A stretch of DNA of 35,564 nt, from contig JAIOPV010000187.1 in NCBI GenBank assembly GCA_021413735.1, positions 1-35,564 on the forward strand, read 5' to 3'. Source of the stretch: Planctomycetota bacterium (lineage in GTDB: Bacteria > Planctomycetota > Planctomycetia > Gemmatales > Gemmataceae). Below the pieces are notes generated by a model. It was not told where the DNA came from, ran no database searches, and saw only the letters and a program-made list of their open reading frames with translations. Shown here piece after piece: positions 125 through 13,050 of the stretch (within the stretch, counting starts at the first letter, position 1; each line of letters opens with the position of its first letter). The position numbers and the translations under genes were made by a program.

Positions 125-622
125 ATGCGGTTCCACCTGATCGACCGAATCGAAACCTGGGAATCCGGGAAGTCGCTGAAGGCGTCCAAATTCCTCGCCC
201 TCGGCGAAGAGTACCTCGCCGACCACTTCCCCAAGTTTCCCATCATGCCGGGCGTCTTGATGCTCCAGGCGTGCGTCGAGGCGGCATCGTGGTTGTGGCG
301 AGCCACGACAAACTACCAACACTCCGTAATTGTGCTTCGCGAAGTCAAAATGGTGAAGTACGGGACGTTCATGCAACCCGGTCGCCGGATGGAAGTGACC
401 GTCGATCTCACGAAAACCGAAGGCGATACGGCAACGTTCAAGGCCAAGGGATTAAACGACGCGGGCGAGCAGACGGTCGCGGCTCAGTTTGTCCTTCGCG
501 GCTACGGTTTGGCCGATCGCGGTCCTGCTGGAGTTGCGGCCGAGGCAAAGTTGCTCGCTCACTGGAAATCGCACTGGGCGTTGCTCCGCGGCGAACTGCT
601 CCAGGCGAGCGGAGGACGTTAG
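125..622 (+). CDS. FabZ-like 3-hydroxyacyl-ACP dehydratase, variant copy (DH1)
   Basis: A hot-dog-fold dehydratase-like protein of 165 residues that would remove water from 3-hydroxyacyl-ACP. The FabZ signature is visible as DHFPKFPIMPGVLML around residues 33-47. The catalytic His is present (H34), but the position of the catalytic acid, 14 residues later, is Gln (Q48), where FabZ has Glu and FabA has Asp. The ATG at 125 was chosen because the family homology begins there; an upstream frame to 77 adds 16 residues without family character. It opens a + strand cluster of ketoreductase, ACP, second dehydratase and two ketosynthases. The last codons and the stop lie inside the left arm of a long inverted repeat (604-677). 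The loss of the acid suggests it works as a partner of the second dehydratase (2042-2533), or is inactive alone; this is inference. Confidence 0.88.
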   Translation: MRFHLIDRIETWESGKSLKASKFLALGEEYLADHFPKFPIMPGVLMLQACVEAASWLWRATTNYQHSVIVLREVKMVKYGTFMQPGRRMEVTVDLTKTEGDTATFKAKGLNDAGEQTVAAQFVLRGYGLADRGPAGVAAEAKLLAHWKSHWALLRGELLQASGGR

Positions 623-677
623 TCCTCCGGTTTCTTGTTTTCCCGGTTTACCGGAGGACTGACGTCCTCCGCTCGCC
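604..677. repeat. Inverted repeat, 27-bp arms, at the end of DH1
   Basis: The arms 604-630 and 651-677 are complementary with one mismatch, separated by 20 nt. Each arm is itself partly palindromic (GGAGGAC...GTCCTCC). The left arm contains the DH1 stop codon. No T-run follows. It is one of several families of intergenic palindromes in this window; it may end transcription, pause it, or be a REP/MITE-like element. Confidence 0.85.
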
Positions 678-704
678 AAGAACGCTAATGTCAGGATCTC
701 GAAG

Positions 705-1466
705 ATGCTTCTCAAGGATCAAGTAGCGATTGTAACGGGTGGGAGTCGCGGAATCGGCAAAGCGATCGTTCTCGCGCTGGCGAAGGAAGGCGCGAAAGTT
801 GCCTTCGTGTATAAAGGTAGCACAGACGCCGCGAAAGCCCTCGAAGCGGAAGTTGCGGCGGCTGGCGGCATCGCAAAGGCACACCAAGCCGACGTTGCCG
901 ACCCGACTGCCGGGGATCGCGTTGTCGCGGCGGTGATGGCGGATTGGAGTCGGGTTGATATCCTTGTGAACAACGCCGGTGTGATCCGCGATAAGTTATT
1001 CGTTCAGATGGAGGCGGACGACTGGAATACGGTGGTGAACACCAACCTGTCGGGGGTTTTCGGCTTCTGCAAAGCCGTCTCCAAGCAGATGGTGTTCAAA
1101 CAACGTTCCGGGCGAATTATTAACGTGTCGAGCATCGCGGCTGAACACGTAAACAAGGGACAATCGAACTACGCGGCGAGTAAGGGTGCGGTCAACAGCT
1201 TTACCCGCGTTCTCGCTGCCGAACTCGGTTCTCGCAATGTACTTGTGAACGCGGTTGCACCCGGATTTATCGAAACGGATATGAGCCAGGCCGTCCGGAA
1301 TATGGCTGGCGAGGACAACCTCAAAAAGCTGATTCCGGTCAAGCGGTTGGGTAAGCCCGAAGACATCGCCGCCGTGGTGCTGTTTCTGGCGAGTCCGGCG
1401 GCGGCCTACATCACCGGTCAAGTGATTACCGTGGACGGCGGCCTCAGCCTCGGGGCAGTATCCTGA
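705..1466 (+). CDS. fabG: 3-oxoacyl-ACP reductase (FabG-type SDR)
   Basis: A 253-residue short-chain dehydrogenase/reductase of normal FabG length. It would reduce 3-oxoacyl-ACP to 3-hydroxyacyl-ACP with NADPH. The cofactor glycine motif TGGSRGIG lies at residues 11-18, the NNAG motif near 90, and the catalytic set is complete: Ser143, Tyr156 and Lys160 (YAASK). The C-terminal ITVDGG sequence is also typical of FabG. It sits 82 bp after the first dehydratase and 65 bp before the ACP, in the same direction, so it is probably the ketoreductase of this chain-building cluster rather than the housekeeping copy. Only the assignment to this pathway is inferred; the family is clear. Confidence 0.93.
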   Translation: MLLKDQVAIVTGGSRGIGKAIVLALAKEGAKVAFVYKGSTDAAKALEAEVAAAGGIAKAHQADVADPTAGDRVVAAVMADWSRVDILVNNAGVIRDKLFVQMEADDWNTVVNTNLSGVFGFCKAVSKQMVFKQRSGRIINVSSIAAEHVNKGQSNYAASKGAVNSFTRVLAAELGSRNVLVNAVAPGFIETDMSQAVRNMAGEDNLKKLIPVKRLGKPEDIAAVVLFLASPAAAYITGQVITVDGGLSLGAVS

Positions 1467-1531
1467 ACCCCGAACACTAAATGGGACCTCGGATGACCGA
1501 GATCTCATTTCGGGAGCCGGAGAAGGAAACC

Positions 1532-1921
1532 ATGACGCACGACGAAATCTTCGCCAAGGTTCGCTCAACTCTCGTGGACGCCCTGAACGTCGACGACAAT
1601 GAGGTTAGCCCGACCTCTCGTTTGAAGGGCGACCTCAACGCCGAGTCAATCGACTTCCTCGATATCGTGTTTCGCCTCGAACGACAGTTCGGGCTGACGA
1701 TTCCACGAGAAGATCTCTTCCCAGAGTCGATCTTCCAGGGCGATCCGAAGTTCGTTGCTGGCGGCAAGATCACCCCCGATGGGTTGGTCGAGTTGCAGTC
1801 AAAAATGCCGTATGCCGATCTGACGGAGTTCCGCAAGGACCCGCGCCTCGACAAGATGGAAGACCTGTTCACGGTCGATCTGATCGTGAACTATCTGCAA
1901 TCTCGCGTCGGCGGGAAGTAA
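1532..1921 (+). CDS. Acyl carrier protein with an enlarged C-terminal half
   Basis: A 129-residue carrier protein. The phosphopantetheine site is in the motif NAESIDFLDIV, with Ser39 as the likely attachment residue. Helix I (THDEIFAKVRSTLVDAL) and helix II look normal. Ordinary ACPs are about 75-80 residues. Here roughly 45 extra residues, rich in Asp, Phe and Lys (EDLFPESIFQGDPKF and following), sit between the helix II/III region and the final helix (TVDLIVNYLQSRV). The ATG at 1532 was preferred over 1481 because a purine-rich site (GAGAAGGA) lies just before it and the fold begins there. It is surrounded by ketoreductase, dehydratase and ketosynthase genes and probably carries the growing chain. 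Confidence 0.9.
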   Translation: MTHDEIFAKVRSTLVDALNVDDNEVSPTSRLKGDLNAESIDFLDIVFRLERQFGLTIPREDLFPESIFQGDPKFVAGGKITPDGLVELQSKMPYADLTEFRKDPRLDKMEDLFTVDLIVNYLQSRVGGK

Positions 1922-1928
1922 CGTTTCA

Positions 1929-2000
1929 GCGAGCCACGGGGTTTCTTCCCGTGGTGCCTTTGACCCATCAAACACCACGGGGATACACCCCGTGGCTCGC
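1929..2000. repeat. Inverted repeat, 28-bp arms, between ACP and DH2
   Basis: The arms 1929-1956 and 1973-2000 pair with three mismatches around a 16-nt loop and contain the core GAGCCACGGGG. The outer part recurs as GCGAGCC...GGCTCGCC at 26227-26293, so this is a repeat family. It occupies most of the 120-bp gap between two same-direction genes and has no T-run. Confidence 0.85.
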
Positions 2001-2041
2001 CATTCCACAATTCCCGTCTCAACTGGATTTGGTGCGAACCG

Positions 2042-2533
2042 ATGCGCTGGACGTGGATCGACCGTTTCGTTGCCTTCGAGCCACGCAAATCGGCCGTTGC
2101 GGTCAAGAATCTGAGCCTGGCCGAAGATCACTTTGCGGATCACTTTCCGGGCTTCCCCGTGATGCCGGCCCCGCTCATCCTTGAGGGGCTTGCCCAAACT
2201 GGCGGTATCCTCGTCGGACATGCCAATAACTTCGAGAAGAACGTCGTCCTCGCGAAGATGACCAATGCCAAGTTTCACCGGGAAACCACCCCCGGTGAGC
2301 AACTCACCTACACGACAACGCTCCTCCAGATCAACGACACCGGAGCGCAGGTAGTCGGAACGGTTCACGTTGGTGGGGAGTTGGTCGCGGAAGCTGAAAT
2401 CATGTTCGCGCATATCAACCCGGCACAGTTGCCGGCTGGAATGCCCGATGCCAAGTTCGTCTTCAGCGGAGAGCTGGCCTATCTCCTGAAAATGGCCGAA
2501 GCGACCGCAAATGCCGCCGGAAAGCCGTCGTAA
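2042..2533 (+). CDS. FabZ-like 3-hydroxyacyl-ACP dehydratase, complete copy (DH2)
   Basis: A 163-residue hot-dog-fold dehydratase. The signature DHFPGFPVMPAPLILEGLAQ spans residues 33-52, with catalytic His34 and Glu48 both present. These positions match exactly those of the first dehydratase (125-622), where Glu48 is replaced by Gln. In FabZ enzymes the active site is shared across the dimer, His from one subunit and the acid from the other, so a DH1:DH2 heterodimer would retain one full active site. The protein would form trans-2-enoyl-ACP. It follows the ACP by 120 bp and precedes the ketosynthase pair. Start ATG at 2042 (MRWTWIDRF) gives the same N-terminal layout as DH1. Confidence 0.92.
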   Translation: MRWTWIDRFVAFEPRKSAVAVKNLSLAEDHFADHFPGFPVMPAPLILEGLAQTGGILVGHANNFEKNVVLAKMTNAKFHRETTPGEQLTYTTTLLQINDTGAQVVGTVHVGGELVAEAEIMFAHINPAQLPAGMPDAKFVFSGELAYLLKMAEATANAAGKPS

Positions 2534-2795
2534 GCAAACACGGTTATCCCGATCGTGCCAGCAAAACCACCAGTATCATCCATCCGGATGATTCTCGCGG
2601 GCACTTAAACCGGCCGTTCGCTGGCCTCGCCTATACACTGTTCTAATGTTGCATGGGTTCCGCCCGTGCGAAACCACGCCCGGCCGGTTCTTTCCCCTGG
2701 CCCGCGGCGTTCCCGGCCGATGACGTTTGGCCGAATAAAGTGGGGATGCACCAGCGATCGGGCTGGTGAGACCGACGAATGAGAGGCATAACCGG

Positions 2796-4085
2796 GTGAC
2801 GGAAACGACGACCCACTCCCGACGCACCGTGCTGACCGGGTTCGGCGTCATCAACCCAATCGGGTCCGGTCCCGACGCCTTCTGGCAAGCACTCCTCGCC
2901 GGAACGCCGGGCGTTCACACTATCACCCACTTCAATCCGGAGCATTTGCCTTCGCGAATGGCAGGCGAAGTCAAAGGCTTCTCCGCCAAGGCGCTCATCG
3001 AGAAGTCGTATCGCCGCACCCTCAATGCGATGGCACGCACAGTTGAGTTCGGGGTGATCGGCTGTCAACTCGCGATGCAGGATGCCGGGTTGGCCAAGGG
3101 CACCGTTCCGTCGCATCGAATCGGGGTCGAGTTCGCGAGTGTGATGGGAGCCACGGAACTCGACGACCTCGGACCGGCAAGTAAGCACTCCATCGGAGCG
3201 GATACAGTTGAGCCTGACATGGCAGTCTGGGGCAAAGAAGGCCTGCCGAAAGTTCCCCCGCTGTGGATGCTGAAGTACCTGCCGAACATGCCCGCCTGCC
3301 ATGCGACCATCCTGTACGACATGCAAGGGCCGAGCAACACGCAGATTCCCGGCGACACAGCCGGCGCGGTTGCGTTGGGCGAAGCTCAGCGAATCATCCG
3401 GCGTGGTGCGGCCGATGTCATGCTCGTTGGTGGCAGCGAAGCGAAGATTCACCCGCTTAGCCTGAGCCGGTTCAACCTGTTCGCGCCGTTCTCGCACCGC
3501 AATGACGACCCCGAAGGCGCGATTCGACCGTTCGACGTGAGCCGCGACGGCACCTGTCCCGGCGAAGGAACAGCCGCGTTCACGTTGGAATCGCTCGATC
3601 ACGCACTCGCACGGAAGGCCAAGATCTACGGCGAAGTGCTTGCTGTCGCCAGCGGTGTGGATCGCGGTCTGAAGGGTCCGGGTATGGCCCAACTCATCCG
3701 CAACGCACTCACGACGGCGGGAATCGAGCCTTCCGATGTCGATCACGTCAACGCGCACGGCCTGGGCACAGTGAAGGGCGACGCGTTCGAGGCCCGAGCG
3801 ATCGCAGAAGTGTTCGGCAAATCGGTGCCGGTGTTCGCTCCGCTTGCTCAGTTCGGGAACCTTGGAGCGGCGTCGGGACTGATGGAACTGGCGTGCAGTG
3901 TGTTGGCACTGAAGAATGGGCAGCTTCCCGGAACGCTGAATCATACGAACCCGGACCCTGCGTGCCCGATTCAGGTACACACCGGAGCGCCGCGGCCCGT
4001 CACGAAGCCTTACGCGGTGAAGTTATCGTACACAGACCTCGGGCAGAGTTCGGTTGTGGTCATCCGCCGTTGGGAGGGTGTTTAG
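2796..4085 (+). CDS. Ketosynthase-like protein lacking catalytic Cys (chain-length-factor type)
   Basis: A 429-residue thiolase-fold protein clearly related to FabF/KAS II. Aligned with the downstream ketosynthase, its nucleophile-elbow region reads IPGDTAGAVALGEA where the partner reads QTACAASSQAIGEA, so the catalytic Cys is Asp (D187). His321 (NAHG) is kept, but the second catalytic His is Asn (N355, QFGN instead of MLGH) and the supporting Lys is Leu (L350). This pattern resembles the chain length factor (KS-beta) of type II polyketide and aryl polyene systems, although those usually have other residues at the Cys position. The GTG at 2796 was chosen because GAGAGG lies upstream and the first strand follows; GTG 2766 is an alternative. 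A 262-bp gap precedes it, so an internal promoter is possible. Confidence 0.9.
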   Translation: MTETTTHSRRTVLTGFGVINPIGSGPDAFWQALLAGTPGVHTITHFNPEHLPSRMAGEVKGFSAKALIEKSYRRTLNAMARTVEFGVIGCQLAMQDAGLAKGTVPSHRIGVEFASVMGATELDDLGPASKHSIGADTVEPDMAVWGKEGLPKVPPLWMLKYLPNMPACHATILYDMQGPSNTQIPGDTAGAVALGEAQRIIRRGAADVMLVGGSEAKIHPLSLSRFNLFAPFSHRNDDPEGAIRPFDVSRDGTCPGEGTAAFTLESLDHALARKAKIYGEVLAVASGVDRGLKGPGMAQLIRNALTTAGIEPSDVDHVNAHGLGTVKGDAFEARAIAEVFGKSVPVFAPLAQFGNLGAASGLMELACSVLALKNGQLPGTLNHTNPDPACPIQVHTGAPRPVTKPYAVKLSYTDLGQSSVVVIRRWEGV

Positions 4086-4195
4086 TGTTTGGTGTTTGGT
4101 GTTTAGTGTTTTGGTCTTCTCTCTGTCGGTTGTTGAAGCCGAGCGAGAATACCCGAAACGCAACATACTAAACACGAAACACCAGACACAAAACG
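4086..4195. repeat. G/T-rich imperfect inverted repeat between the ketosynthase genes
   Basis: Just after the KS-beta stop lies a low-complexity run of TGTTTGG/GTGTTTAG units (4086-4112). A roughly complementary A/C-rich run (about 4165-4195) ends just before the next start codon. The stem is long but imperfect. A similar G/T-then-A/C element occurs at 14360-14480. The function is unknown; it might attenuate transcription between the two ketosynthase genes. Confidence 0.6.
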
Positions 4196-4198
4196 AAG

Positions 4199-5494
4199 AT
4201 GCGCAGACGGGTTGTTATCACTGGCATGGGCGTCGTTACTCCACTGGGGTGGACGGTCGACGATCTCTTCACGAGCCAAATCGAGGGGCGAACGGCAGTC
4301 GGGCCGATCTCCCGGTTCGACGCACGCACATTCCCCACCACATTCGCCTCCGAAGTTACCGGCTTCGAGCTTGGTAAGTTCCTACGCGATGCCGAGCGCT
4401 ATGCCCACTGCGGCTTGAACACTCACTTCGCACTTGCGGCCGGCAAGATGGCGATGGAAGATGCCGGTTTGCTGAATCCCGCGAAGGGCAACCGCTCTCG
4501 AATGGGCGTGTACCTCGGCTCCGGTGAAGGCAGCGACGAATTCCCGGCTCTCGTGCGTGGCCTTGCACACGCCAGCCCCGCCAGCGGAACGGGGCCGGTT
4601 GATGCCGGCGAGTTCACGCGGGTCATGCTCCAGTGGATGGATGGCCCCCGTGAAGGCGAGCAGGAGATGCACACGCCGGCGGGCCACATCGCCGAGACGT
4701 TCGCGCTGGATGGTCCGAATCAGGCGTGTCAGACCGCTTGTGCCGCAAGTTCGCAAGCGATAGGGGAAGCGGTCGAACTAATCCGCTGGAACGACGCCGA
4801 TGTGATGGTTGCAGGCGGTTCGCACAGTATGATTCACCCGCTTGGCGTAAGTGGATTCAATCGCCTGACGGCACTCTCTCAACGCAGCGACAGCCCCCGC
4901 ACCGCGAGCCGACCGTTCGACCTGAACCGCGACGGCTTCGTGATCGGCGAAGGAGCTGGGTTGGTTGTGCTGGAAGAACTCGAACACGCGAAGAAGCGTG
5001 GCGCGACGATTTACGCCGAACTGACCGGCTACGGCACCACGGCCGACGCTTACCGCATGACTGATCCGCATCCGGAAGGTCGTGGGGCGATTCGTGCGAT
5101 GGCCGAAGCGATCGCCGACGCTGGTCTGAAGCCCGCGGACATCGGGTACATCAACGCACACGGCACGAGCACGCAGGCCAACGATTCGACCGAAACGGCA
5201 GGCATCAAGGGCGTGTTCGGCGACGCGGCGAAGAAGGTTCCGATTTCGAGCAGCAAGAGTATGCTCGGTCACCTGATCGCGGCAGCGGGTGTTGTCGAAT
5301 TGGTGATTTGCGTGATGGCACTTCGCAAGGGTGTTGTGCCTCCGACGATCAACTACGAGACGCCGGATCCGGAATGCGATCTCGATTATGTTCCGAACAG
5401 CGCACGCGAGGTGCGGTTCAGGCACGTTTTGAGCAACAGCTTCGGCTTCGGCGGACAGAACATCGCGCTGATCGCGTCGAAGTTCGTGGATTAA
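4199..5494 (+). CDS. 3-oxoacyl-ACP synthase (FabF/KAS II type), complete active site
   Basis: A 431-residue condensing enzyme that would extend acyl-ACP with malonyl-ACP. All catalytic residues of the KAS II family are visible: Cys181 (TACAASSQAIGEA), His321 (NAHGTSTQAND), Lys353 and His358 (SSKSMLGHLIAAAG). The GGQN and NSFGFGG sequences near the C terminus are typical. The length is normal. It follows the Cys-less paralogue (2796-4085) by 113 bp, so the two probably form a heterodimer in the manner of KS:CLF pairs. In classic type II polyketide operons the CLF usually follows the KS; here it precedes it. The start ATG at 4199 gives the standard RRVVITGMG N terminus. Confidence 0.95.
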   Translation: MRRRVVITGMGVVTPLGWTVDDLFTSQIEGRTAVGPISRFDARTFPTTFASEVTGFELGKFLRDAERYAHCGLNTHFALAAGKMAMEDAGLLNPAKGNRSRMGVYLGSGEGSDEFPALVRGLAHASPASGTGPVDAGEFTRVMLQWMDGPREGEQEMHTPAGHIAETFALDGPNQACQTACAASSQAIGEAVELIRWNDADVMVAGGSHSMIHPLGVSGFNRLTALSQRSDSPRTASRPFDLNRDGFVIGEGAGLVVLEELEHAKKRGATIYAELTGYGTTADAYRMTDPHPEGRGAIRAMAEAIADAGLKPADIGYINAHGTSTQANDSTETAGIKGVFGDAAKKVPISSSKSMLGHLIAAAGVVELVICVMALRKGVVPPTINYETPDPECDLDYVPNSAREVRFRHVLSNSFGFGGQNIALIASKFVD

Positions 5495-5543
5495 TTGTTG
5501 GCGTTGGTGATTATCCTCTGAGTTCTCAAACCGGGGTGCAACC

Positions 5544-6551
5544 TTGGTATTCTGGTTCTGGATCCTCATCACGGTGCTGGCTGTGCCTCCCATTGCGTAT
5601 GGGCTCGGCATGGCTGCGCTGTATCTCTACGTCCGCTGGAACTACATGGGTTATCTGACCCGTATCTTCCAGGAGAAGCCGTTGTTCGTGATCCCTCGCG
5701 GCGAGAAACCTCTCGATGGCGAAGAAGTCGCGATCAAGACGGACGACGGTCTCACGCTGCGTGGTTGCTACCTGAAAACGGCAGCACCCGACCGCAAGGG
5801 CGTCATTCTCTTCGGCCTGGAGTTTGGGTCGAACCGGTGGGCGTGTCGTCCTTACTGCGAGAAGCTGCTCGAAGTGGGTTACGACGTGTTCGCGGTGGAA
5901 TCGCGCAGCCAGGGCGAGAGCGACAAGGATCCGAACTACGAACCGCTTCAGTGGGTAACTGACCGCGACCTCGCCGACACTCGCACCACGATCAAGTATC
6001 TGCTTTCACGTCCAGACGCCGATCCACGGGGCATCGGCATCTTCGGCATCAGCAAGGGTGGCGGCACGGGCTTCCTCGCGGCTTCGAATGAGCCACGGGT
6101 ACGCTGCATGGTGACCGACGGTGCTTACGGCACGCACACGACGATGATCCCGTATCTGAAGCGTTGGATTCAGATTTACAGCGACCGCAAGATCCTTCAG
6201 CGGGTGCTGCCGACCTGGTTCTATGGCATCATCGGCATGGTGGGTGCAAAGAAGGTAGCCCGCAACCGCGGCGTGACGTATCCGAGCATCGAGAAGGCTG
6301 TGGGTCGGCTGAACCGTCCGCTGCTGATGATCCACGGCGAGGGCGACAACTACATCCGCCCCGAGATGGCGCAGGCTTTGTTTGCTCGTGCCCGTGGCCA
6401 GAAAGAACTGTGGGTGGTTCCGAAGGCCAAGCACAACGGAGCGTTGACGGTCGCCGGGGATGCGTACCACGCGCGAGTGGTGGCGTTCTTCGACGCCCAC
6501 CTCGCGAATAACAACCCACCGAGCAGTAGCAACCCACCCGCCGTGAGCTGA
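5544..6551 (+). CDS. Membrane-anchored alpha/beta hydrolase
   Basis: A protein of about 335 residues with one N-terminal hydrophobic segment (WFWILITVLAVPPIAYG) and an alpha/beta hydrolase domain. The nucleophile motif is GISKGG with Ser170. Asp268 (GEGDNY) and His297 (AKHNG) complete a plausible Ser-Asp-His triad. It lies 49 bp after the complete ketosynthase in the same direction. It is therefore a candidate thioesterase, acyl hydrolase or acyl transferase that releases or moves the product at the membrane; this role is inferred from position only. The TTG at 5544 was taken as the start because it keeps the hydrophobic anchor; ATG 5610 is a shorter alternative that would remove most of it. 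Confidence 0.85.
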   Translation: MVFWFWILITVLAVPPIAYGLGMAALYLYVRWNYMGYLTRIFQEKPLFVIPRGEKPLDGEEVAIKTDDGLTLRGCYLKTAAPDRKGVILFGLEFGSNRWACRPYCEKLLEVGYDVFAVESRSQGESDKDPNYEPLQWVTDRDLADTRTTIKYLLSRPDADPRGIGIFGISKGGGTGFLAASNEPRVRCMVTDGAYGTHTTMIPYLKRWIQIYSDRKILQRVLPTWFYGIIGMVGAKKVARNRGVTYPSIEKAVGRLNRPLLMIHGEGDNYIRPEMAQALFARARGQKELWVVPKAKHNGALTVAGDAYHARVVAFFDAHLANNNPPSSSNPPAVS

Positions 6552-6567
6552 GTCTCGCTAAACTGAA

Positions 6568-6954
6568 TCAATCTTCGGTGTGGTTCGGCTTCGTCCGTAA
6601 CCACACCACAGGGCAAAAGCCCAGTCTCCGCAATCGCGGGATCGGATCCCAATCCTCCTCAACCCAGAGAACTACTGGCGTAATCCCAATCGCTCGCAAG
6701 TCTCGAGCACCTGTTGTCGTCTTCATTACCGAAGCAAACTTCTCCGTCGTGATGCCATTTATTGGCCCTTCAAATGCGATGATGTAGCGCGGATCAAACC
6801 ACAGGTGTCGCACGGGATCCCGAGAACTAACAAAGGAAAGGAACACGGGTTCCTCAGGAGTTCGTTCGATCAGCCTGTAGAGGGCTAATCCTGGGGGAGC
6901 CTCTGTGGGTGGGGTAAAGAGCAAGCAGATATTGCAGACGATAAACGCGTTCAT
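6568..6954 (-). CDS. Hypothetical protein, 128 residues
   Basis: A small unrecognised gene on the opposite strand between the hydrolase and the GH3 gene. Its start is supported by a clear AGGAG ribosome binding site about 7 nt upstream of the ATG at 6954. The protein has a hydrophobic N terminus (MNAFIVCNICLLF) and a mixed alpha/beta-looking body with Trp and Pro near the end. No motif known to me is present. Its stop lies 16 bp from the hydrolase stop on the other strand. It breaks the otherwise same-direction run of the acyl cluster and may be a later insertion. Confidence 0.6.
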   Translation of the reverse strand: MNAFIVCNICLLFTPPTEAPPGLALYRLIERTPEEPVFLSFVSSRDPVRHLWFDPRYIIAFEGPINGITTEKFASVMKTTTGARDLRAIGITPVVLWVEEDWDPIPRLRRLGFCPVVWLRTKPNHTED

Positions 6955-7171
6955 GCTCGAACTCCTATGCGGACGGCGAAAATACCCAACCCGTAACGAC
7001 GATCAAGTCCTCTTCACCAGGACTATACGATTCTGTCGATTGTCCCAAATGCGGAGGATGGGTGGGGTGGGATTGGCTCTCCTCGCGGCGATTCCCGCTG
7101 GTGCGACCGCACTTCTCGCAGTTACATGAGTGAAGGCTTCTCCGTTCTCGCCCCATCCGGAACGGTTTGTC

Positions 7172-8872
7172 ATGTCCCTGAAACGGTTCATCCTCGTTCG
7201 CATCGGCCGGCTCATCTCGTACCCCATCCGACGGCAGCTCAGGCTGTTCGAGGTCGCGTGCCAGAACCCCGAAGGGGTCCAGACCGAGTTGCTGCTGCAA
7301 ATCATCCGCAACCAACAGAACACCGCGTTCGGGCACGATCACAAGTTCGCCAGTATCAGCAGCGTTGCCGACTACCGCAAGAACCTCAGCATTGCCCCCT
7401 ACGAATACGTCGCCCCGTACATCGACCGCGTCACCAAAGGCGAAACCAACGCCCTGCTCTCGGCGAAGCGCGTTCACCTGTTCGCGCTGACGTCCGGCAC
7501 CACGGCGAGCCGTAAGCTCATACCCGTCACCGACGACTACCTGAACGCCTACAAACGCGGCTGGAATATGTGGGGCGTGAAGATGTACCGCGACAACCGC
7601 GGTCGCAAGGTCGCGATGCGGCCCATCATGCAAATGGCCGGCGACCCCGAGGAGTTCCGCACCGAGGCCGGCATCCCCTGCGGCAACCTCTCCGGCTACA
7701 CCGCGATGGTGCAGAAGCGCCTCATTCGCGGCATGTACTCAGTGCCGTACATCGTCGGAAAAATCAAGGACGCCAAGGCTCGCTACTACGTCGCGCTGCG
7801 TTGCTCCGTGACGCTCAACGTGTCGCAGTTCATGGCCGCGAACCCCAGCACTCTCGTCCAGTTCGCACGCATCCTCGACTCCGAAAAGGAACATCTCTTC
7901 CGCGATCTGCACGACGGCACCCTTCGCGCCGATCTCGACATTCCGCCCGACATCCGCGCCATGCTCACGCCGAAGATGGGGAAAGCTGCGGCACTCGCCG
8001 AGAAGCTGAACGCAATCGCGATGAAGTCGGGGCGGTTGCTTCCAACAGACGTGTGGCCGGTGGAGGGCACCGTCATCAACACCTGGACCGGCGGCAGCAT
8101 GGGTCCGTACCTGCGGCAGCTTCCGGAGTATTTCGGCACGCCGCCGATTCGCGATCTCGGCTTGCTGGCCAGCGAAGGCCGCATGACGATTCCGTTCGAG
8201 AACAGCACCTCCGGCGGCGTCCTCGATATCTGGTCGCACTACTTCGAGTTCGTGCCCGAAGGCGAAATCGACAGCCCACAACCCACCGTTCTCGGTGCTC
8301 ACGAACTCAGCGAAGGAAAGAGTTACTACCTCATCCCGACGACCGCTTACGGTCTGTACCGCTATCACATTTCCGATCTGGTGCGTGTTACGGGGTTCTT
8401 CGGACGCACGCCGATCGTCGAGTTCCTGGGCAAAGGGCATCGCTTCTCGAACATGACCGGCGAGAAGTTGAGTGAGTACCACGTCACGAAGGCGATGGAC
8501 GCGGTTGCAGGTCGGCAATCGTTGCCGATCACGGCGTACAGCCTGGCACCGATGTGGGACGAGAAGCAACCGTACTACGGGCTGTTCCTCGAAGAAGCCG
8601 ACGCGAAGGATGAGGCAGCATTGCGGCGATTCCTGGCAGCGTTCGACAAGCAACTCGGCGAGGAGAACATCGAGTACGCGGCGAAGCGTGACAGCGGGCG
8701 ACTTGGTCCGGTGCGTGCGGTGCTGATCCCGACTGGCGAATGGACGACCTGGGATCGCAATCGCCTGTCGCAAACGGGCGGCTCCCCCGAGCAGTACAAG
8801 CACCCGTGCCTGATCGGCGACATCAAATTCCGCGACACGATGAAGGTGCTTCGCGAGATTTCAGCCGGCTGA
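7172..8872 (+). CDS. GH3 family acyl-adenylate/amidosynthetase-like protein
   Basis: A 566-residue protein of the GH3 auxin-responsive-promoter family. Plant members adenylate a carboxylic acid and join it to an amino acid; the substrates of bacterial members are mostly unknown. The ATP-binding motif FALTSGTTASRKLIPVT starts near residue 104, and the conserved YRYHISDLVRVTGF and EFLGKGHRFSNMTGEKLSE segments are present, so the adenylating core looks complete. The start ATG at 7172 was preferred over GTG 7130 because family similarity begins at MSLKRF. It lies 620 bp beyond the acyl-assembly genes in the same direction. It could therefore activate or amidate their carboxylic acid product; this link is inference. 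Confidence 0.9.
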   Translation: MSLKRFILVRIGRLISYPIRRQLRLFEVACQNPEGVQTELLLQIIRNQQNTAFGHDHKFASISSVADYRKNLSIAPYEYVAPYIDRVTKGETNALLSAKRVHLFALTSGTTASRKLIPVTDDYLNAYKRGWNMWGVKMYRDNRGRKVAMRPIMQMAGDPEEFRTEAGIPCGNLSGYTAMVQKRLIRGMYSVPYIVGKIKDAKARYYVALRCSVTLNVSQFMAANPSTLVQFARILDSEKEHLFRDLHDGTLRADLDIPPDIRAMLTPKMGKAAALAEKLNAIAMKSGRLLPTDVWPVEGTVINTWTGGSMGPYLRQLPEYFGTPPIRDLGLLASEGRMTIPFENSTSGGVLDIWSHYFEFVPEGEIDSPQPTVLGAHELSEGKSYYLIPTTAYGLYRYHISDLVRVTGFFGRTPIVEFLGKGHRFSNMTGEKLSEYHVTKAMDAVAGRQSLPITAYSLAPMWDEKQPYYGLFLEEADAKDEAALRRFLAAFDKQLGEENIEYAAKRDSGRLGPVRAVLIPTGEWTTWDRNRLSQTGGSPEQYKHPCLIGDIKFRDTMKVLREISAG

Positions 8873-8951
8873 GTTCTCCGCTTGCCGAGGTTGCCCAACC
8901 ACGTTATGGTCCCGCACTCGACGGAGACCCGTATTGGCACGGACGCAAGCC

Positions 8952-10109
8952 ATGAACCGCACCATCGCCATCATCGCAGTCTCTTTACTACTCGTCGGTT
9001 GCACTCGATTCAGCACGCGCACCAACGGTCCGTTCGCTCGCAAGCAAAAGTCGAATCCCACAGCCACGATTCCATCCGGACCAGCCGCAAATAATTCGCC
9101 GCTCGTTCTCGGAAACAGCGCGCAACCTGAACCACCGCCACCACCCGGTTCCGATCTCGTCGTGCCATTGCGGCCCAATGGACTCGCTCGCGGCTCCGAT
9201 TCGGCTCCACCGCCGCCAGCAGGCGAAATCCTTCCGGCTGGCGGATTCCCGCCCGAAGACCCAATCGCTGCCTTTCCACCCAAACGACGGCCGGAACCGC
9301 TGCCGAGTCAGCTTCCGTCGCCGTTCGCGAAAGATGGCACGAACCCACAGCCGAAAACCCCGGCTGTTGATCCGGCACAAGCTGCGTTTGCCCGCAACAT
9401 CGCCGACATCAAGAAGCTCCTCGCGGCAGCAACCGAGAAGTGGAATCAGGTCGATACTTACGAAGCAACCGTGACGCGGCGCGAACTGGCTCCAAGCGGC
9501 AAAACAAACGACGAAGTGGTCTTCTATCAGTTCCGCAAGGAACCGATGAGCGTGTATATCCGCACGCTCAGTGAGTCGGCGAAGGGTCGCGAGGTGCTGT
9601 ACAACCCAAGCAAATTCGGCGACAAGATTCACGCCATCATCGGACAGGGCGACGGCAACCTTCTCTACAAGACCGGAGACAAGGCACCCGCGATGTCGCC
9701 AGATAGTCCACTGGTGAAGGACAAGAGTCGGTATAGCGTGCGCGAGGCAGGTTTCGGCACGCCGATCAACCGCATGGCTGAATGGCTGTCCAAGGCCGCG
9801 GCCGGCAAGTTCCCCATCGACTCCATGACATATCTCGGGCTCGTTCAACGGCCCGAGTTTGCATCACCGGTGGCGGGCGTGCAACTGAAACTGCGTCCTG
9901 GCGACGATCCGCTGATGCCAAACGGCGGCGTGCGTCACTGGTTCTACGATCAGGATCCGAATTCGCCAGGCTGCGGACTGCCGTTGCTCATCATCGCGAC
10001 GGAGCCGAACGGCAAGGAAGTGGAATACTACTTCTTCGACAAGCTCAAGCTCGGCACGAAATACCCAGACGCCGACTTCTCGCCGGATCGCTTCAACAAG
10101 AAGCGCTAA
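8952..10109 (+). CDS. DUF1571 family lipoprotein
   Basis: A 385-residue secreted protein. The N terminus MNRTIAIIAVSLLLVGC is a lipoprotein signal with the lipobox LVGC. A low-complexity stretch rich in Pro, Ser and Asn (about residues 20-130) follows, then a DUF1571 domain from about residue 145 (KKLLAAATEKWNQVDTYEATVTRREL) to the end. DUF1571 proteins are widespread in planctomycetes and their function is unknown; the fold resembles outer-membrane lipoprotein carriers of the LolA type (my inference). The Pro-rich part probably spans the periplasm or cell wall. It starts 79 bp after the GH3 gene and could be co-transcribed. It converges with the next gene, with 7 bp between the stops. Confidence 0.85.
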   Translation: MNRTIAIIAVSLLLVGCTRFSTRTNGPFARKQKSNPTATIPSGPAANNSPLVLGNSAQPEPPPPPGSDLVVPLRPNGLARGSDSAPPPPAGEILPAGGFPPEDPIAAFPPKRRPEPLPSQLPSPFAKDGTNPQPKTPAVDPAQAAFARNIADIKKLLAAATEKWNQVDTYEATVTRRELAPSGKTNDEVVFYQFRKEPMSVYIRTLSESAKGREVLYNPSKFGDKIHAIIGQGDGNLLYKTGDKAPAMSPDSPLVKDKSRYSVREAGFGTPINRMAEWLSKAAAGKFPIDSMTYLGLVQRPEFASPVAGVQLKLRPGDDPLMPNGGVRHWFYDQDPNSPGCGLPLLIIATEPNGKEVEYYFFDKLKLGTKYPDADFSPDRFNKKR

Positions 10110-10116
10110 GCAGATG

Positions 10117-11229
10117 TCACCGAGTGATTCTGTCGGCCGTGATCGCTGTGCCGATCATCATCCACGGCCATGCCAAGCCCAGGAACGCGATGCCCCAATA
10201 AAGCGGCACCAGTTGCTCTTCGGGCAGATACGCCACGACGATCAACGAGATCAACGTGAACGTCAGGATAACCAGCCAGATCCCGATGCCCGACCTGCGT
10301 CCTTTCGACACCGGCAACGGTCGCGACATCGTGCCGACCACTTCTGCCTTCGTTCCCCAGAACAGATCGACGGCCTGCGAACTGCGTGCGTAGCCCGCGT
10401 CGGCGAAGTGCGCTTTGAACTTCTCCATCCACTGTTCCCGCGTCACGACGTGGCCGATCACCGGCCCGAAGATAATCACGTTGTGGAAGTCGTTGCCATG
10501 CTCGAACATCAACGCCTTGCCGCCAGGCTTCAGCACTCGCTTGGCTTCTGAAAACACCTTGTCGAGCGGGGAGTCTCGCCCGATTCCTCGAAGACTTGGG
10601 ATAGGCTCGCCCGCCGAACCATCGTTGGGAATCTCGTGCGTGCCGAAGCCCAGCACCACCGCGTCGCACGACGCATCAGGTAACGGCAGCGTGTAATCGA
10701 GCGAGCGGTGGGACAAGATGCGTGGGTTGTGCGTCGGTGGGCATTCCAGATCTCGCACATCTCGGATAGCAATTTCGTGCGGGTCACCAGCCACGCCCCA
10801 GCAGTCTACAGAGTGGATCGTCGCGTCAGGCAGCACGTCCGCGAGTATATGGCTGTGTCGATACGTGCCGATGTGCAGGTCGGCGACGACCGCTGGTTCC
10901 TTCGTATTGCTTTCGAGAAGCAGCCGACGGACGTAGCGTTCACCGGGGTGACCGTACATGCGATACATGCCAATGCAGAGCGAGTAGCCGAGGTAGAACA
11001 GCGAAACGGTGCCGGCTCCGAGTGCTGCGGCCTTCCAGAATTGCCAGTCGTAATACAGTGCGAGGAACACCATCGGGAAGCCGAGCGTGAGCATCAAGGC
11101 ACAGTAAATCTTGAAGTAGTCGCGACGGCTGACATAGAGTGCGCGACCGTAGTACCACCAGGCGGTCGGTCGGCGTGCGGGATTGGTGCGAGGGTAAGCG
11201 TGCCATCGCGAATGTGATGTGAGGAGCAT
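10117..11229 (-). CDS. Membrane-embedded class I SAM-dependent methyltransferase
   Basis: A 370-residue protein with an unusual layout. Two N-terminal hydrophobic segments (about residues 45-85, FKIYCALMLTLGFPMVFLAL and the next) come first. A soluble methyltransferase-like domain follows (about 105-300), containing VADLHIGTYRHSHIL, a DAVVLGFGTHEIPND stretch and the LKPGGKALMFEHGNDFHN segment typical of class I SAM enzymes. Two C-terminal hydrophobic segments (about 315-360) end the protein. The catalytic domain thus sits between two membrane hairpins, which suggests a lipid or quinone-like substrate at the membrane; the substrate is unknown. The ATG at 11229 has a good GGAG site upstream. 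The glycine-rich motif I is degenerate, so cofactor use should be confirmed. Confidence 0.78.
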   Translation of the reverse strand: MLLTSHSRWHAYPRTNPARRPTAWWYYGRALYVSRRDYFKIYCALMLTLGFPMVFLALYYDWQFWKAAALGAGTVSLFYLGYSLCIGMYRMYGHPGERYVRRLLLESNTKEPAVVADLHIGTYRHSHILADVLPDATIHSVDCWGVAGDPHEIAIRDVRDLECPPTHNPRILSHRSLDYTLPLPDASCDAVVLGFGTHEIPNDGSAGEPIPSLRGIGRDSPLDKVFSEAKRVLKPGGKALMFEHGNDFHNVIIFGPVIGHVVTREQWMEKFKAHFADAGYARSSQAVDLFWGTKAEVVGTMSRPLPVSKGRRSGIGIWLVILTFTLISLIVVAYLPEEQLVPLYWGIAFLGLAWPWMMIGTAITADRITR

Positions 11230-11318
11230 GTTGCTCTCCTTGATTTGGAAGCCGTTGGGCTTGGCCTCTTGAGAGTCAACCGTGGAATGTGGTGCGGGAT
11301 CACGCGAAAACGCAAAGA

Positions 11319-11373
11319 ACACAGGGCTTCCGCCCTGTGCTTACAAAAGACGGCCCCTCCGGGGCGAAATCCC
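11319..11373 (-). repeat. REP-like double-hairpin element, copy 3 (inverted)
   Basis: Two perfect small hairpins lie side by side: CACAGGGC-TTCC-GCCCTGTG at 11320-11339 and GCCCC-TCC-GGGGC at 11353-11365. The element is the inverted counterpart of the copies at 11881-11933 and 11950-12002. It ends 5 bp beyond the stop codon of the transposase gene, so the transposase gene is bracketed by inverted copies. Confidence 0.88.
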
Positions 11374-11378
11374 AATCC

Positions 11379-11825
11379 TCAGGTCCAAAGGTATTTCTCG
11401 TCGTACTCGATCTGATGCTCGTTCAGCAGGGTCAGAAACTCGTCACGAAACGTTTTGTTCGCGTGATGTTCAACCTGATTGTTGATGTACGCGGTCACAG
11501 CAGGAATCCCTGAGGGATTCAGCGTGAATGCTCCATAACCGTCTTGCCAAGCAAACGGCATCACGCCACGCTCGTGAAGCCAGCTACATGAGTTGGACTT
11601 GATGTCTCGCACGATATCGGAAATCGAGCGATCAGCGACCAACCGTACAAGCAGGTGAATGTGGTCTGGAATCCCGCCCGCTGCAAGCAGCATACCTTTG
11701 CGATTTCGGAGCAGGCCCCCGATGAATGCGTGCAGTTCTGGTCGCCAAGTTGCGTCAATCCAAGGTTCACGGTTTTTGGTGCTGAACGTGATGTGGTACA
11801 GCAATCGTGTGTAGGTTTGCGCCAT
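11379..11825 (-). mobile_element. REP-associated tyrosine transposase (RAYT, IS200-like)
   Basis: A 148-residue single-strand transposase of the Y1/HUH superfamily. The metal-binding HUH motif is DHIHLL (His55 and His57) and the catalytic Tyr is Tyr113 (TAYINNQVEHH). The length is normal for RAYT/IS200 TnpA, and no second (TnpB-like) gene is present. The ATG at 11825 has a strong CAGGAG site; the frame continues upstream only because the flanking repeats happen to lack stops. Inverted copies of a 53-nt double-hairpin element lie 5 bp downstream and 56-177 bp upstream. This is the arrangement known for RAYT genes and the REP sequences they process. The gene appears intact. Confidence 0.93.
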
Positions 11826-11880
11826 AGCGCAACTCCTGGTTACGATGGGAATAGGGTGAGCGTTCAGTTGGTTGGGGATT

Positions 11881-11933
11881 TGGTTTTCGCCCCGGAGGGG
11901 CCGTCTTTTGTAGCACAGGGCGGAAGCCCTGTG
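11881..11933 (+). repeat. REP-like double-hairpin element, copy 1
   Basis: A 53-nt unit with the hairpins GCCCC-GGA-GGGGC and CACAGGGC-GGAA-GCCCTGTG, joined by CGTCTTTTGTAG. It differs from copy 2 at one base and lies 56 bp upstream of the transposase start. Confidence 0.9.
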
Positions 11934-11949
11934 TTCTTCATGTGCGGTT

Positions 11950-12002
11950 TGGTTTTCGCCCCAGAGGGGCCGTCTTTTGTAGCACAGGGCGGAAGCCCTG
12001 TG
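11950..12002 (+). repeat. REP-like double-hairpin element, copy 2
   Basis: A direct repeat of copy 1, 52 of 53 bases identical, separated from it by 16 nt. The single difference breaks the symmetry of the first hairpin slightly (GCCCC-AGA-GGGGC). It ends 13 bp before the stop of the neighbouring PmoA-family gene, so it may also serve as that gene's 3' hairpin. Confidence 0.9.
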
Positions 12003-12015
12003 CGGTCTTGTGTCG

Positions 12016-13050
12016 TCATTTCTTGAACGCTTCAAACGCCTCAGTAACCTTGCCCGTCTTCACGTCGCCATTGTGAGCGTACACGGCGTACTTCAGCTTC
12101 AGTTCGCCGCCCTTCGCGATCTTGAACAGCTCCGTTTTGCCCTTCTGTGTCGGGAAGCCACTGCCGTCGCGACCGAACGGATTCGCTGCGTTCAAGCCGT
12201 ATGCTCGCACGTGCCAGTTCGACTTCGGGTTGTTGTTCGGCCCCTCGAACACTGCGATGCCAACTTCCTTGCCGTTGATCTTGCCCGAGTAGTCGATCCA
12301 CGCCGTCGGCTTGCCCCAGATCGGAAGGTTGTCCTTCTTTGGTGGCGTGACCGTTTCGCCCTCTGCAGTCGTGACCGTTGCTCCGTCCTTTTCGCTTGGG
12401 CGAAGTGCGTCGTGCGTGCGGATGCCAAAGGAACCTTCCTTCGTGTCGCCGAACGTGATCGGGCACGAATTCGCTTTCAGTGTGATGTCGAACACGAACA
12501 GCCGGCCCTCGGGCGTTTCGCGGAATGTGATGACACGCGTTTCGTCGAGCATCTTCACGCCATCCGGAGTGAACCATTCGTTTTGCGTTTCAACGCTCAC
12601 GTCGCCGTTGCCCTTCTTCGGCTCGCCGACCTTCACGACGGTCATTTGGCCGTGCTTTGGCTTGCCGTCCTTGTCCTTCACTTCGCTCCAGAAGTCGACA
12701 CCCTTCCCGTTCTTCTCGTTGCTCTTGGTCTTCAGCTCGATGCCCTCGGGGATCACGTCGCCGTGACAGAACCACACCGACTTCTGGTGAATGTGGTCGG
12801 TGGTTGCTTCGCCGGGCAAACCCTTCTCAATCGGCCAGGCACGAGTGACCCCAACCCCATTCGGAGCGAGGACCGGATACAGGAATGGCTTGGAATACTT
12901 GGCATCCGTGGCATATTTTGCCACGACGACCGAACCTGACTTGAACTCGATGCCATCCTTACCGACGACAGCCGTTATCTCTTCGGCCCTGGCGGTTGGC
13001 GTGATTACGGCGAGTGCGAATGCTGTGAACGCGACAAGGCAGCAGCGCAT
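12016..13050 (-). CDS. Secreted PmoA-family (DUF6807) protein
   Basis: A 344-residue secreted protein. The signal peptide MRCCLVAFTAFALAVITPTARA is followed by a beta-rich domain with the features of the PmoA/DUF6807 family: a DHIHQKSVWFCHGDV segment, a long central part with FGIRTHDALRP, and WIDYSGKINGKEVGIAVFEG near the end. Despite the family name it is not a methane monooxygenase subunit. Members are common in planctomycetes and are often linked to carbohydrate degradation, but no reaction is established to my knowledge. The ATG at 13050 was chosen because the signal peptide begins there and GGAG lies upstream. The gene is divergent from rsgA and apparently stands alone. Confidence 0.85.
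   Translation of the reverse strand: MRCCLVAFTAFALAVITPTARAEEITAVVGKDGIEFKSGSVVVAKYATDAKYSKPFLYPVLAPNGVGVTRAWPIEKGLPGEATTDHIHQKSVWFCHGDVIPEGIELKTKSNEKNGKGVDFWSEVKDKDGKPKHGQMTVVKVGEPKKGNGDVSVETQNEWFTPDGVKMLDETRVITFRETPEGRLFVFDITLKANSCPITFGDTKEGSFGIRTHDALRPSEKDGATVTTAEGETVTPPKKDNLPIWGKPTAWIDYSGKINGKEVGIAVFEGPNNNPKSNWHVRAYGLNAANPFGRDGSGFPTQKGKTELFKIAKGGELKLKYAVYAHNGDVKTGKVTEAFEAFKK

Follow-up and report, generated by a model that had tools for sequence, protein, structure and literature searches.

The 35,564-nucleotide stretch described here (the window) runs from base 1 of contig JAIOPV010000187.1 (C135) of a planctomycete of the family Gemmataceae (GenBank assembly GCA_021413735.1). Near its start, eight genes for the assembly of acyl chains follow each other on the plus strand. 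They encode a first dehydratase (DH1), a ketoreductase (KR), an acyl carrier protein (ACP), a second dehydratase (DH2), a ketosynthase lacking the active-site Cys (chain-length factor, CLF), a complete ketosynthase (KS), an alpha/beta hydrolase and a GH3-type enzyme. All eight are open frames and their Pfam assignments agree with the family names, which confirms the gene set, order and common direction that a first-pass annotation had read from the letters of the DNA. What appears to be new is a conserved acyl-assembly module with asymmetric enzyme pairs; Cys-less FabF paralogues as such have been known in planctomycetes since 2009. The region upstream of DH1 is cut off, and in the relatives compared no further gene in this position is conserved across families.

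DH1 (125..622) is a FabZ-type hot-dog dehydratase subunit according to Pfam and a reading of its residues; His34 is kept, and Gln48 replaces the catalytic Glu. It is followed by a FabG-type KR of the short-chain dehydrogenase/reductase (SDR) family (705..1466; Pfam, NCBIfam) and by a dedicated long ACP of 146 residues (1481..1921; Pfam, profile and structural model) that carries a conserved insertion ahead of its last helix and may in fact begin at an internal ATG (MTHDEIF). DH2 (2042..2533; Pfam, residue reading) is again of FabZ type and has both His34 and Glu48. By Pfam, alignment and tree, the CLF (2766..4085, counted from a GTG; the true start possibly lies further in) carries Asp197 for the Cys and Asn365 for His340 of FabF, and the KS (4199..5494) has its nucleophile, Cys181, and a Glu (Glu110) at the pocket position of FabF Ile108. 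The alpha/beta hydrolase (5544..6551; Pfam, sequence) is marked by a hydrophobic stretch at the N-terminus and by a GISKG motif and may act in acyl release or transfer. The GH3 protein (7130..8872; Pfam, NCBIfam) belongs to the acyl-adenylating amide synthetases and would catalyze a conjugation step. In agreement with the first-pass annotation, Pfam and NCBIfam detected no FabI-kind enoyl reductase, malonyl transferase or beta-ketoacyl-ACP synthase III (KAS III) among the eight proteins; counterparts are encoded elsewhere in the genome.

Dehydratase and ketosynthase pairs

In FabZ-type dimers each active site combines the His of one subunit with the Glu of the other. The degenerate partner in the window is DH1, since DH2 has both residues. 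Catalytic columns were read in 105 loci with DH1-ACP-DH2 (123 scanned), 104 of them distinct. The His of DH1 and the Glu of DH2 are kept in all 104. In 31 loci DH1 has another residue instead of Glu (Gln in 30, His in one), and in four DH2 has lost the His (two Gln, one Ser, one gap), so that all 35 departures affect a single one of the two sites that could form. On quick trees at least 6 state changes are required for the Glu of DH1 and 3 for the His of DH2, some of which could be regains. Because the losses are confined to one site, the other, composed of DH1-His and DH2-Glu, looks as if it were kept by selection in a DH1:DH2 heterodimer, and the two proteins presumably act together. This residue pattern supports the heterodimer logic that the first-pass annotation had suggested for the dehydratases. 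A comparable split is seen in the sequences of the aryl polyene (APE) dehydratases of E. coli, which we take to be ApeI and ApeP: the former has the His motif without the Glu, the latter the Glu without the His motif.

The second pair consists of the two ketosynthases. Cys163, Lys335 and His340 of FabF correspond to Asp197, a Leu and Asn365 in the CLF of the window, and all are kept in the KS. A survey of 131 sources, in which the proteins were sorted by their best match, yielded 94 distinct KSs and 82 distinct CLFs. Every KS retains all four catalytic residues and the gating Phe400. None of the CLFs has a Cys at the nucleophile column, which holds Asp in 52, Glu in 28, Asn in one and Gln in one, and all 82 have a Trp at the column of FabF Phe133. 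For two FabF paralogues of Rhodopirellula baltica, RB3714 and RB4527, an Asp or Glu in place of Cys163 was likewise published in 2009; the accessible part of that publication contains no account of the DH1-KR-ACP-DH2-CLF-KS set (PMC2649909). The structure matches listed for KS and CLF include a solved pair of 3-oxoacyl-ACP synthases (PDB entry 9s5h), of which chain B matches both KS and CLF and chain C matches CLF.

In FabF, Ile108 gates the pocket (PMC7138838); 93 of the 94 KSs have a Glu at the corresponding column, where none of the reference KSs compared has an acid. The ketosynthase Iga11 of ishigamide synthesis also has an acid in its acyl pocket, Asp113, which promotes release after each condensation, and according to the available text of the same paper ApeO-ApeC has no such pocket residue (PMC8358021). 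The sole KS without the Glu belongs to a locus of another genome (L122 of G071, 6571-10632) and has a Lys instead. In this locus the CLF slot holds a complete ketosynthase of a third type and DH2 lacks the His motif, perhaps an ancestral or alternative form of the arrangement.

Conservation and relationship to known systems

The order of the cluster genes is conserved far beyond chance. For the comparison 20 loci were picked from 19 of 59 genomes, and 11 of them show the full eight-gene order. Two others have no detectable KR, one lacks GH3 and one both hydrolase and GH3; two retain only CLF and KS, and three only a CLF-like cluster gene. Of 294 genomes sampled from the whole phylum, 60 contain the long ACP, including 20 of the same class and the one studied here. 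In an ACP scan of named genomes, 80 of 566 confirmed loci were analysed with 5 kb flanks, among them Limnoglobus, Fimbriiglobus, Schlesneria, Gimesia, Fuerstiella, Phycisphaerales and Sedimentisphaerales, together with one metagenome-assembled genome (MAG) titled Candidatus Staskawiczbacteria (L279). At least one DH lies beside the ACP in 78 of the 80 loci; all eight genes are present in 16, and the short flanks cut many loci. The composition varies between groups: loci titled Schlesneria or Gimesia and similar ones read DH1-KR-ACP-DH2-KS with no CLF in between, Sedimentisphaerales-titled loci read DH1-ACP-DH2-CLF-KS, the KR is missing in some relatives, and several genomes that we read as Phycisphaerae-like by comparison with the named loci have only DH1-ACP-DH2. 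In all eight genomes of the last kind that were searched, a KS ortholog (53-56% identity) lies elsewhere, in three with a CLF-like neighbour. The first-pass idea of a specialised pathway stands as far as a dedicated gene set is concerned, but a sporadic specialised-metabolite cluster does not agree with conservation across much of the phylum.

Such a distribution, with DH1-ACP-DH2 as the most constant core, would suit a core role in the membrane, for instance an alternative route to mono-unsaturated membrane fatty acids in which the DH pair would act as dehydratase and isomerase and KS:CLF would elongate the enoyl product. We regard this as improbable. With the FabA models of NCBIfam, whose cut-offs are 124 and 238, DH2 scores no more than 19-20 bits and DH1 has no listed hit; GH3 and hydrolase would be superfluous in this route. 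Neither DH1 nor DH2 reaches a FabZ cut-off of NCBIfam.

Literature on the cluster is sparse. A 2023 catalogue names Planctomycetes among the phyla with KS-CLF hits (PMC10132072). In the accessible text of a 2025 review of planctomycete metabolites the terms "aryl polyene" and "ladderane" are absent, and the polyketide passages deal with a type III synthase (PMC12078418). No description of a DH1-KR-ACP-DH2-CLF-KS cluster was found in open-licence papers.

The genome contains a separate plsX-fabD-acp-fabF operon (L205) and a FabZ-domain gene on contig C93. Because of these separate fab genes, the cluster is extra to normal type II fatty acid synthesis (FASII). In the corresponding operon of a same-class genome (G054), fabF is immediately followed by a gene for a Cys-less protein resembling the CLF (L204, 9078-10379). 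Two further contigs carry large ketosynthase frames: on C70 frames of more than 2000 residues combine KS and FabA-type domains and look like a polyunsaturated fatty acid synthase, and C63 has a KS frame of 2506 residues.

For the phylogeny of the ketosynthases a careful tree of 56 rows was calculated after 16 long-branch or near-duplicate rows, including FabF2XL and a flexirubin-type CLF, had been dropped; ApeC, with 240 residues, was left out of the set. The cluster KSs form one group (99/96, with one L122 row inside) and the CLFs another (100/99), which is joined by the complete third KS (99/98); KS, CLF and third KS stand together at 85/89. The nearest outgroup is a Streptomyces KS pair (96/84), followed by FabF1XL (87/76), and FabF forms a group of its own (100/99). 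The planctomycete groups had also come out in a quick first tree with 60 rows. Five approximately unbiased (AU) tests were made, whose p values are uncorrected. They reject one clade of KS and FabF (p=0.010), of KS and ApeO-type sequences, i.e. ApeO and an Aureispira KS (p=0.030), and of CLF and the Cys-less KSs of anammox planctomycetes (p=0.011). The third complete KS of the genome (C135:72010-73290; L202, L003) is encoded about 68 kb away on the same contig beside an SDR gene and belongs to the clade adjoining the CLFs.

Two outcomes named in the first-pass annotation as speaking against a special acyl-assembly set, namely both ketosynthases falling inside housekeeping FabF and a genome with no other fab genes, were not observed; a dedicated, non-housekeeping function is supported by the AU test and the second fab set. 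The opposite view, that these are redundant genes of ordinary housekeeping synthesis, can point to the FASII-like character of every enzyme and to the score of the KS, which exceeds a broad FabF-type subfamily cut-off. Given the separate operon, the rejected KS-FabF clade and the loss of the Cys in all 82 CLFs, it is very improbable, and housekeeping FASII was rejected as an explanation by the KS tree and the second fab set.

A profile of the planctomycete ACPs gives 84 and 79 bits to the long ACPs of Streptomyces, with the insertion aligned in the one printed, then 50 to AcpXL, 46 to a Pseudoalteromonas ACP and to AcpP, 40.5 to ApeF and 34 to the housekeeping ACP of the same genome. The predicted structure of the long ACP (mean pLDDT 84) shows ACP-type helices and an insertion that is mostly ordered and includes a helix at 99-108. 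Among the references tested, the long ACP is by sequence closest to the reducing type II cluster of Streptomyces. These plasmid-borne reducing type II polyketide synthases (PKSs; NZ_CP108811, NZ_CP108708) resemble the cluster in a long ACP of the same family and a KS with a Cys-less partner, and that of NZ_CP108811 also has a KR and two DHs. In contrast to the planctomycete genes they include their own FabD, KAS III, acyl-CoA carboxylase and regulators, and their DHa lacks the His motif; no GH3 is annotated and the KS has no pocket acid, both of which are present in the planctomycetes.

Features of highly reducing (HR) type II PKSs and APE systems recur at the locus: a complete KS beside a Cys-less partner, complementary DH residues, and a KR and a dedicated ACP without an enoyl reductase. 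The APE cluster of E. coli CFT073 shares with it KS:CLF, KR, two DHs, dedicated ACPs, the absence of an annotated enoyl reductase, and LolA-type and lipoprotein genes. It differs in that the planctomycete KS is phylogenetically apart from ApeO and in its CLF of 240 residues, which is of full length in planctomycetes; an MMPL exporter and a glycosyltransferase are not among the annotated cluster genes here. The likening to APE and HR type II systems made in the first-pass annotation holds for the logic of paired enzymes; a grouping of the KS with ApeO is not supported. The ishigamide HR type II PKS (Iga10-Iga16) is likewise similar on paper, with KS:CLF, KR, DH and the pocket acid in Iga11 (PMC8358021, as far as its text is accessible), but for KS and CLF alike FabF scores higher than Iga11 (6kxd_A).

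The Sinorhizobium cluster for very-long-chain fatty acids (VLCFAs) has the order ACP, dehydratase, Cys-less KS, KS, presumably acpXL-fabZXL-fabF2XL-fabF1XL, which the planctomycete cluster shares. Its Cys-less KS has a Glu at the Cys position, and AcpXL is the next ACP after those of Streptomyces. Hence, the genes could form a rhizobial-like VLCFA elongation set that uses FabI for enoyl reduction and passes the chain to lipid A or an amide lipid. This seems to us rather unlikely. The zinc dehydrogenase and the LpxXL-type lipid A acyltransferase of rhizobia were not seen among the annotated cluster genes and downstream neighbours of the window, whose upstream side is cut off, and of the two clusters it is the planctomycete one that has KR, second DH and GH3. 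Furthermore, FabF1XL lies outside the planctomycete group in the careful tree, and the nearly invariant pocket Glu would suit a long alkyl chain poorly.

A comparison with ladderane synthesis had also been suggested. Genomes read as anammox do have DH-KS-KS sets with one Cys-less KS, and two MAG contigs titled Candidatus Kuenenia stuttgartiensis (L245, L247), titles that may be wrong, carry long ACP, DH1, DH2 and CLF. However, the 60 genomes with the long ACP include none of families f49 and f80, which are positive for hydrazine-synthase domains and read as anammox, the AU test separates anammox Cys-less KSs from the CLFs, and no radical SAM or phytoene-desaturase-like gene was found among the annotated flanking genes. 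A ladderane-type pathway related to the anammox lipid clusters is therefore highly unlikely; the kinship is disfavoured by ACP distribution, residue comparison and tree.

Proposed pathway and its significance

We give about an even chance to a dedicated type II acyl-assembly line with two asymmetric heterodimers that feeds a lipid-conjugation step. Housekeeping FabD would load malonate onto the long ACP, and a KS:CLF dimer with a single active Cys would condense. Glu110 in the acyl pocket of the KS might expel the beta-ketoacyl-ACP in each round in the manner of Asp113 in Iga11, possibly from the same position. After reduction by a protein of the KR family, a DH1:DH2 heterodimer would dehydrate at one composite site formed by the His of DH1 and the Glu of DH2. 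As the locus has no enoyl reductase, double bonds are most likely retained in the chain. The membrane hydrolase may then release or transfer the chain, GH3 may couple it to an amino acid or an amine to give a membrane lipid, and the lipoprotein encoded downstream may carry the lipid outward. An unsaturated membrane lipid chain, perhaps a conjugated polyene, is a plausible product, and the residue patterns support the working logic of reducing type II synthases.

For the last steps a precedent exists in planctomycetes. In Singulisphaera the GH3 protein OlsH carries out the N-acylation of ornithine and OlsI, an alpha/beta hydrolase, attaches the second acyl chain, again a pair of these two families that makes an amino lipid (PMC12493201, in the part accessible). 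Hydrolase and GH3 travel with the cluster in many Planctomycetia loci, in agreement with the link drawn in the first-pass annotation, and by analogy the pair may make an amide lipid. The two are not OlsH and OlsI themselves: the cluster GH3 (P0008) reaches 112.8 against the OlsH cut-off of 620 in NCBIfam, and the hydrolase (P0007) has no significant similarity to the OlsI candidate inferred from gene order. OlsH proper is encoded on contig C244 (662 bits, over the cut-off of 620); the cluster protein is 23% identical to it and represents a second, distant GH3.

Several observations weigh against the proposed assembly line. Both DH sites could still be formed in 69 of the 104 loci, and several loci have a KS with no CLF next to it. 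Elsewhere the genome encodes a FabI-like protein (37% over query residues 66-254), FabD and a KAS III-like protein; consequently, an unsaturated chain does not follow from the missing enoyl reductase at the locus. No product is assigned to the Streptomyces cluster used for comparison. The KS scores above the cut-off of a broad FabF-type subfamily of NCBIfam (476 against 387 bits) and only slightly below that of the FabF equivalog (491.6 against 493.75). The DH tree placed no reference DH reliably, and for this reason an N-terminal motif common to DH1 and Streptomyces DHa is a resemblance only. The quick tree had grouped the Streptomyces KS pair with FabF2XL and an actinorhodin-type CLF, at weak support (71), rather than near the planctomycete set. 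An independent origin of the CLF is graded only as likely, because the AU tests reject a common clade neither with the Streptomyces CLF (p=0.104) nor with the actinorhodin-type CLF (p=0.154).

A more far-reaching proposal, which we consider possible but on balance doubtful, is that the non-anammox Planctomycetota share a new class of membrane lipid. Its chain, a polyene or otherwise unsaturated, would come from a reducing type II synthase peculiar to planctomycetes. The CLF of this synthase would have arisen inside the phylum from a complete KS, and in Planctomycetia a new GH3 subfamily would amidate the chain. If the dedicated assembly line is real, much of the phylum holds an acyl synthase of polyene-synthase type as a stable chromosomal set, and the role of such systems is not limited to pigments or antibiotics in certain bacteria. 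The one-sided losses in DH1 and DH2 are a natural experiment on a symmetric dehydratase dimer turning asymmetric, the clade of KS, CLF and third KS suggests a path from a complete KS to a CLF, and the cluster genes are concrete knock-out targets for planctomycete lipid chemistry.

Flanking genes and repeats

A lipoprotein of the DUF1571 family is encoded downstream of GH3 on the plus strand (8952..10109) and is probably the ninth gene of the cluster. The family follows the GH3 gene in 8 of the 21 sequences compared, window included. The protein has a signal with Cys17, a disordered linker, modelled with low confidence, and a C-terminal strand/helix domain at residues ~141-385, in which the block pLDDT is mostly above 90. 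In several same-genus relatives patatin-like lipoproteins, named by sequence inspection, are divergent from the cluster (L051 3853-6713, L055 5479-6879). A methyltransferase-domain protein on the minus strand (10117-11322) adjoins the lipoprotein gene of the window, and an IS200-like Y1 transposase lies at 11379-12035 on the same strand. Three gaps of the operon contain long imperfect inverted repeats, at 604-677 between DH1 and KR, at 1929-2000 between ACP and DH2 and at 4080-4194 between CLF and KS. Their arms of 28-34 nt are 85-96% complementary and resemble small mobile or repetitive extragenic (REP-type) palindromes.

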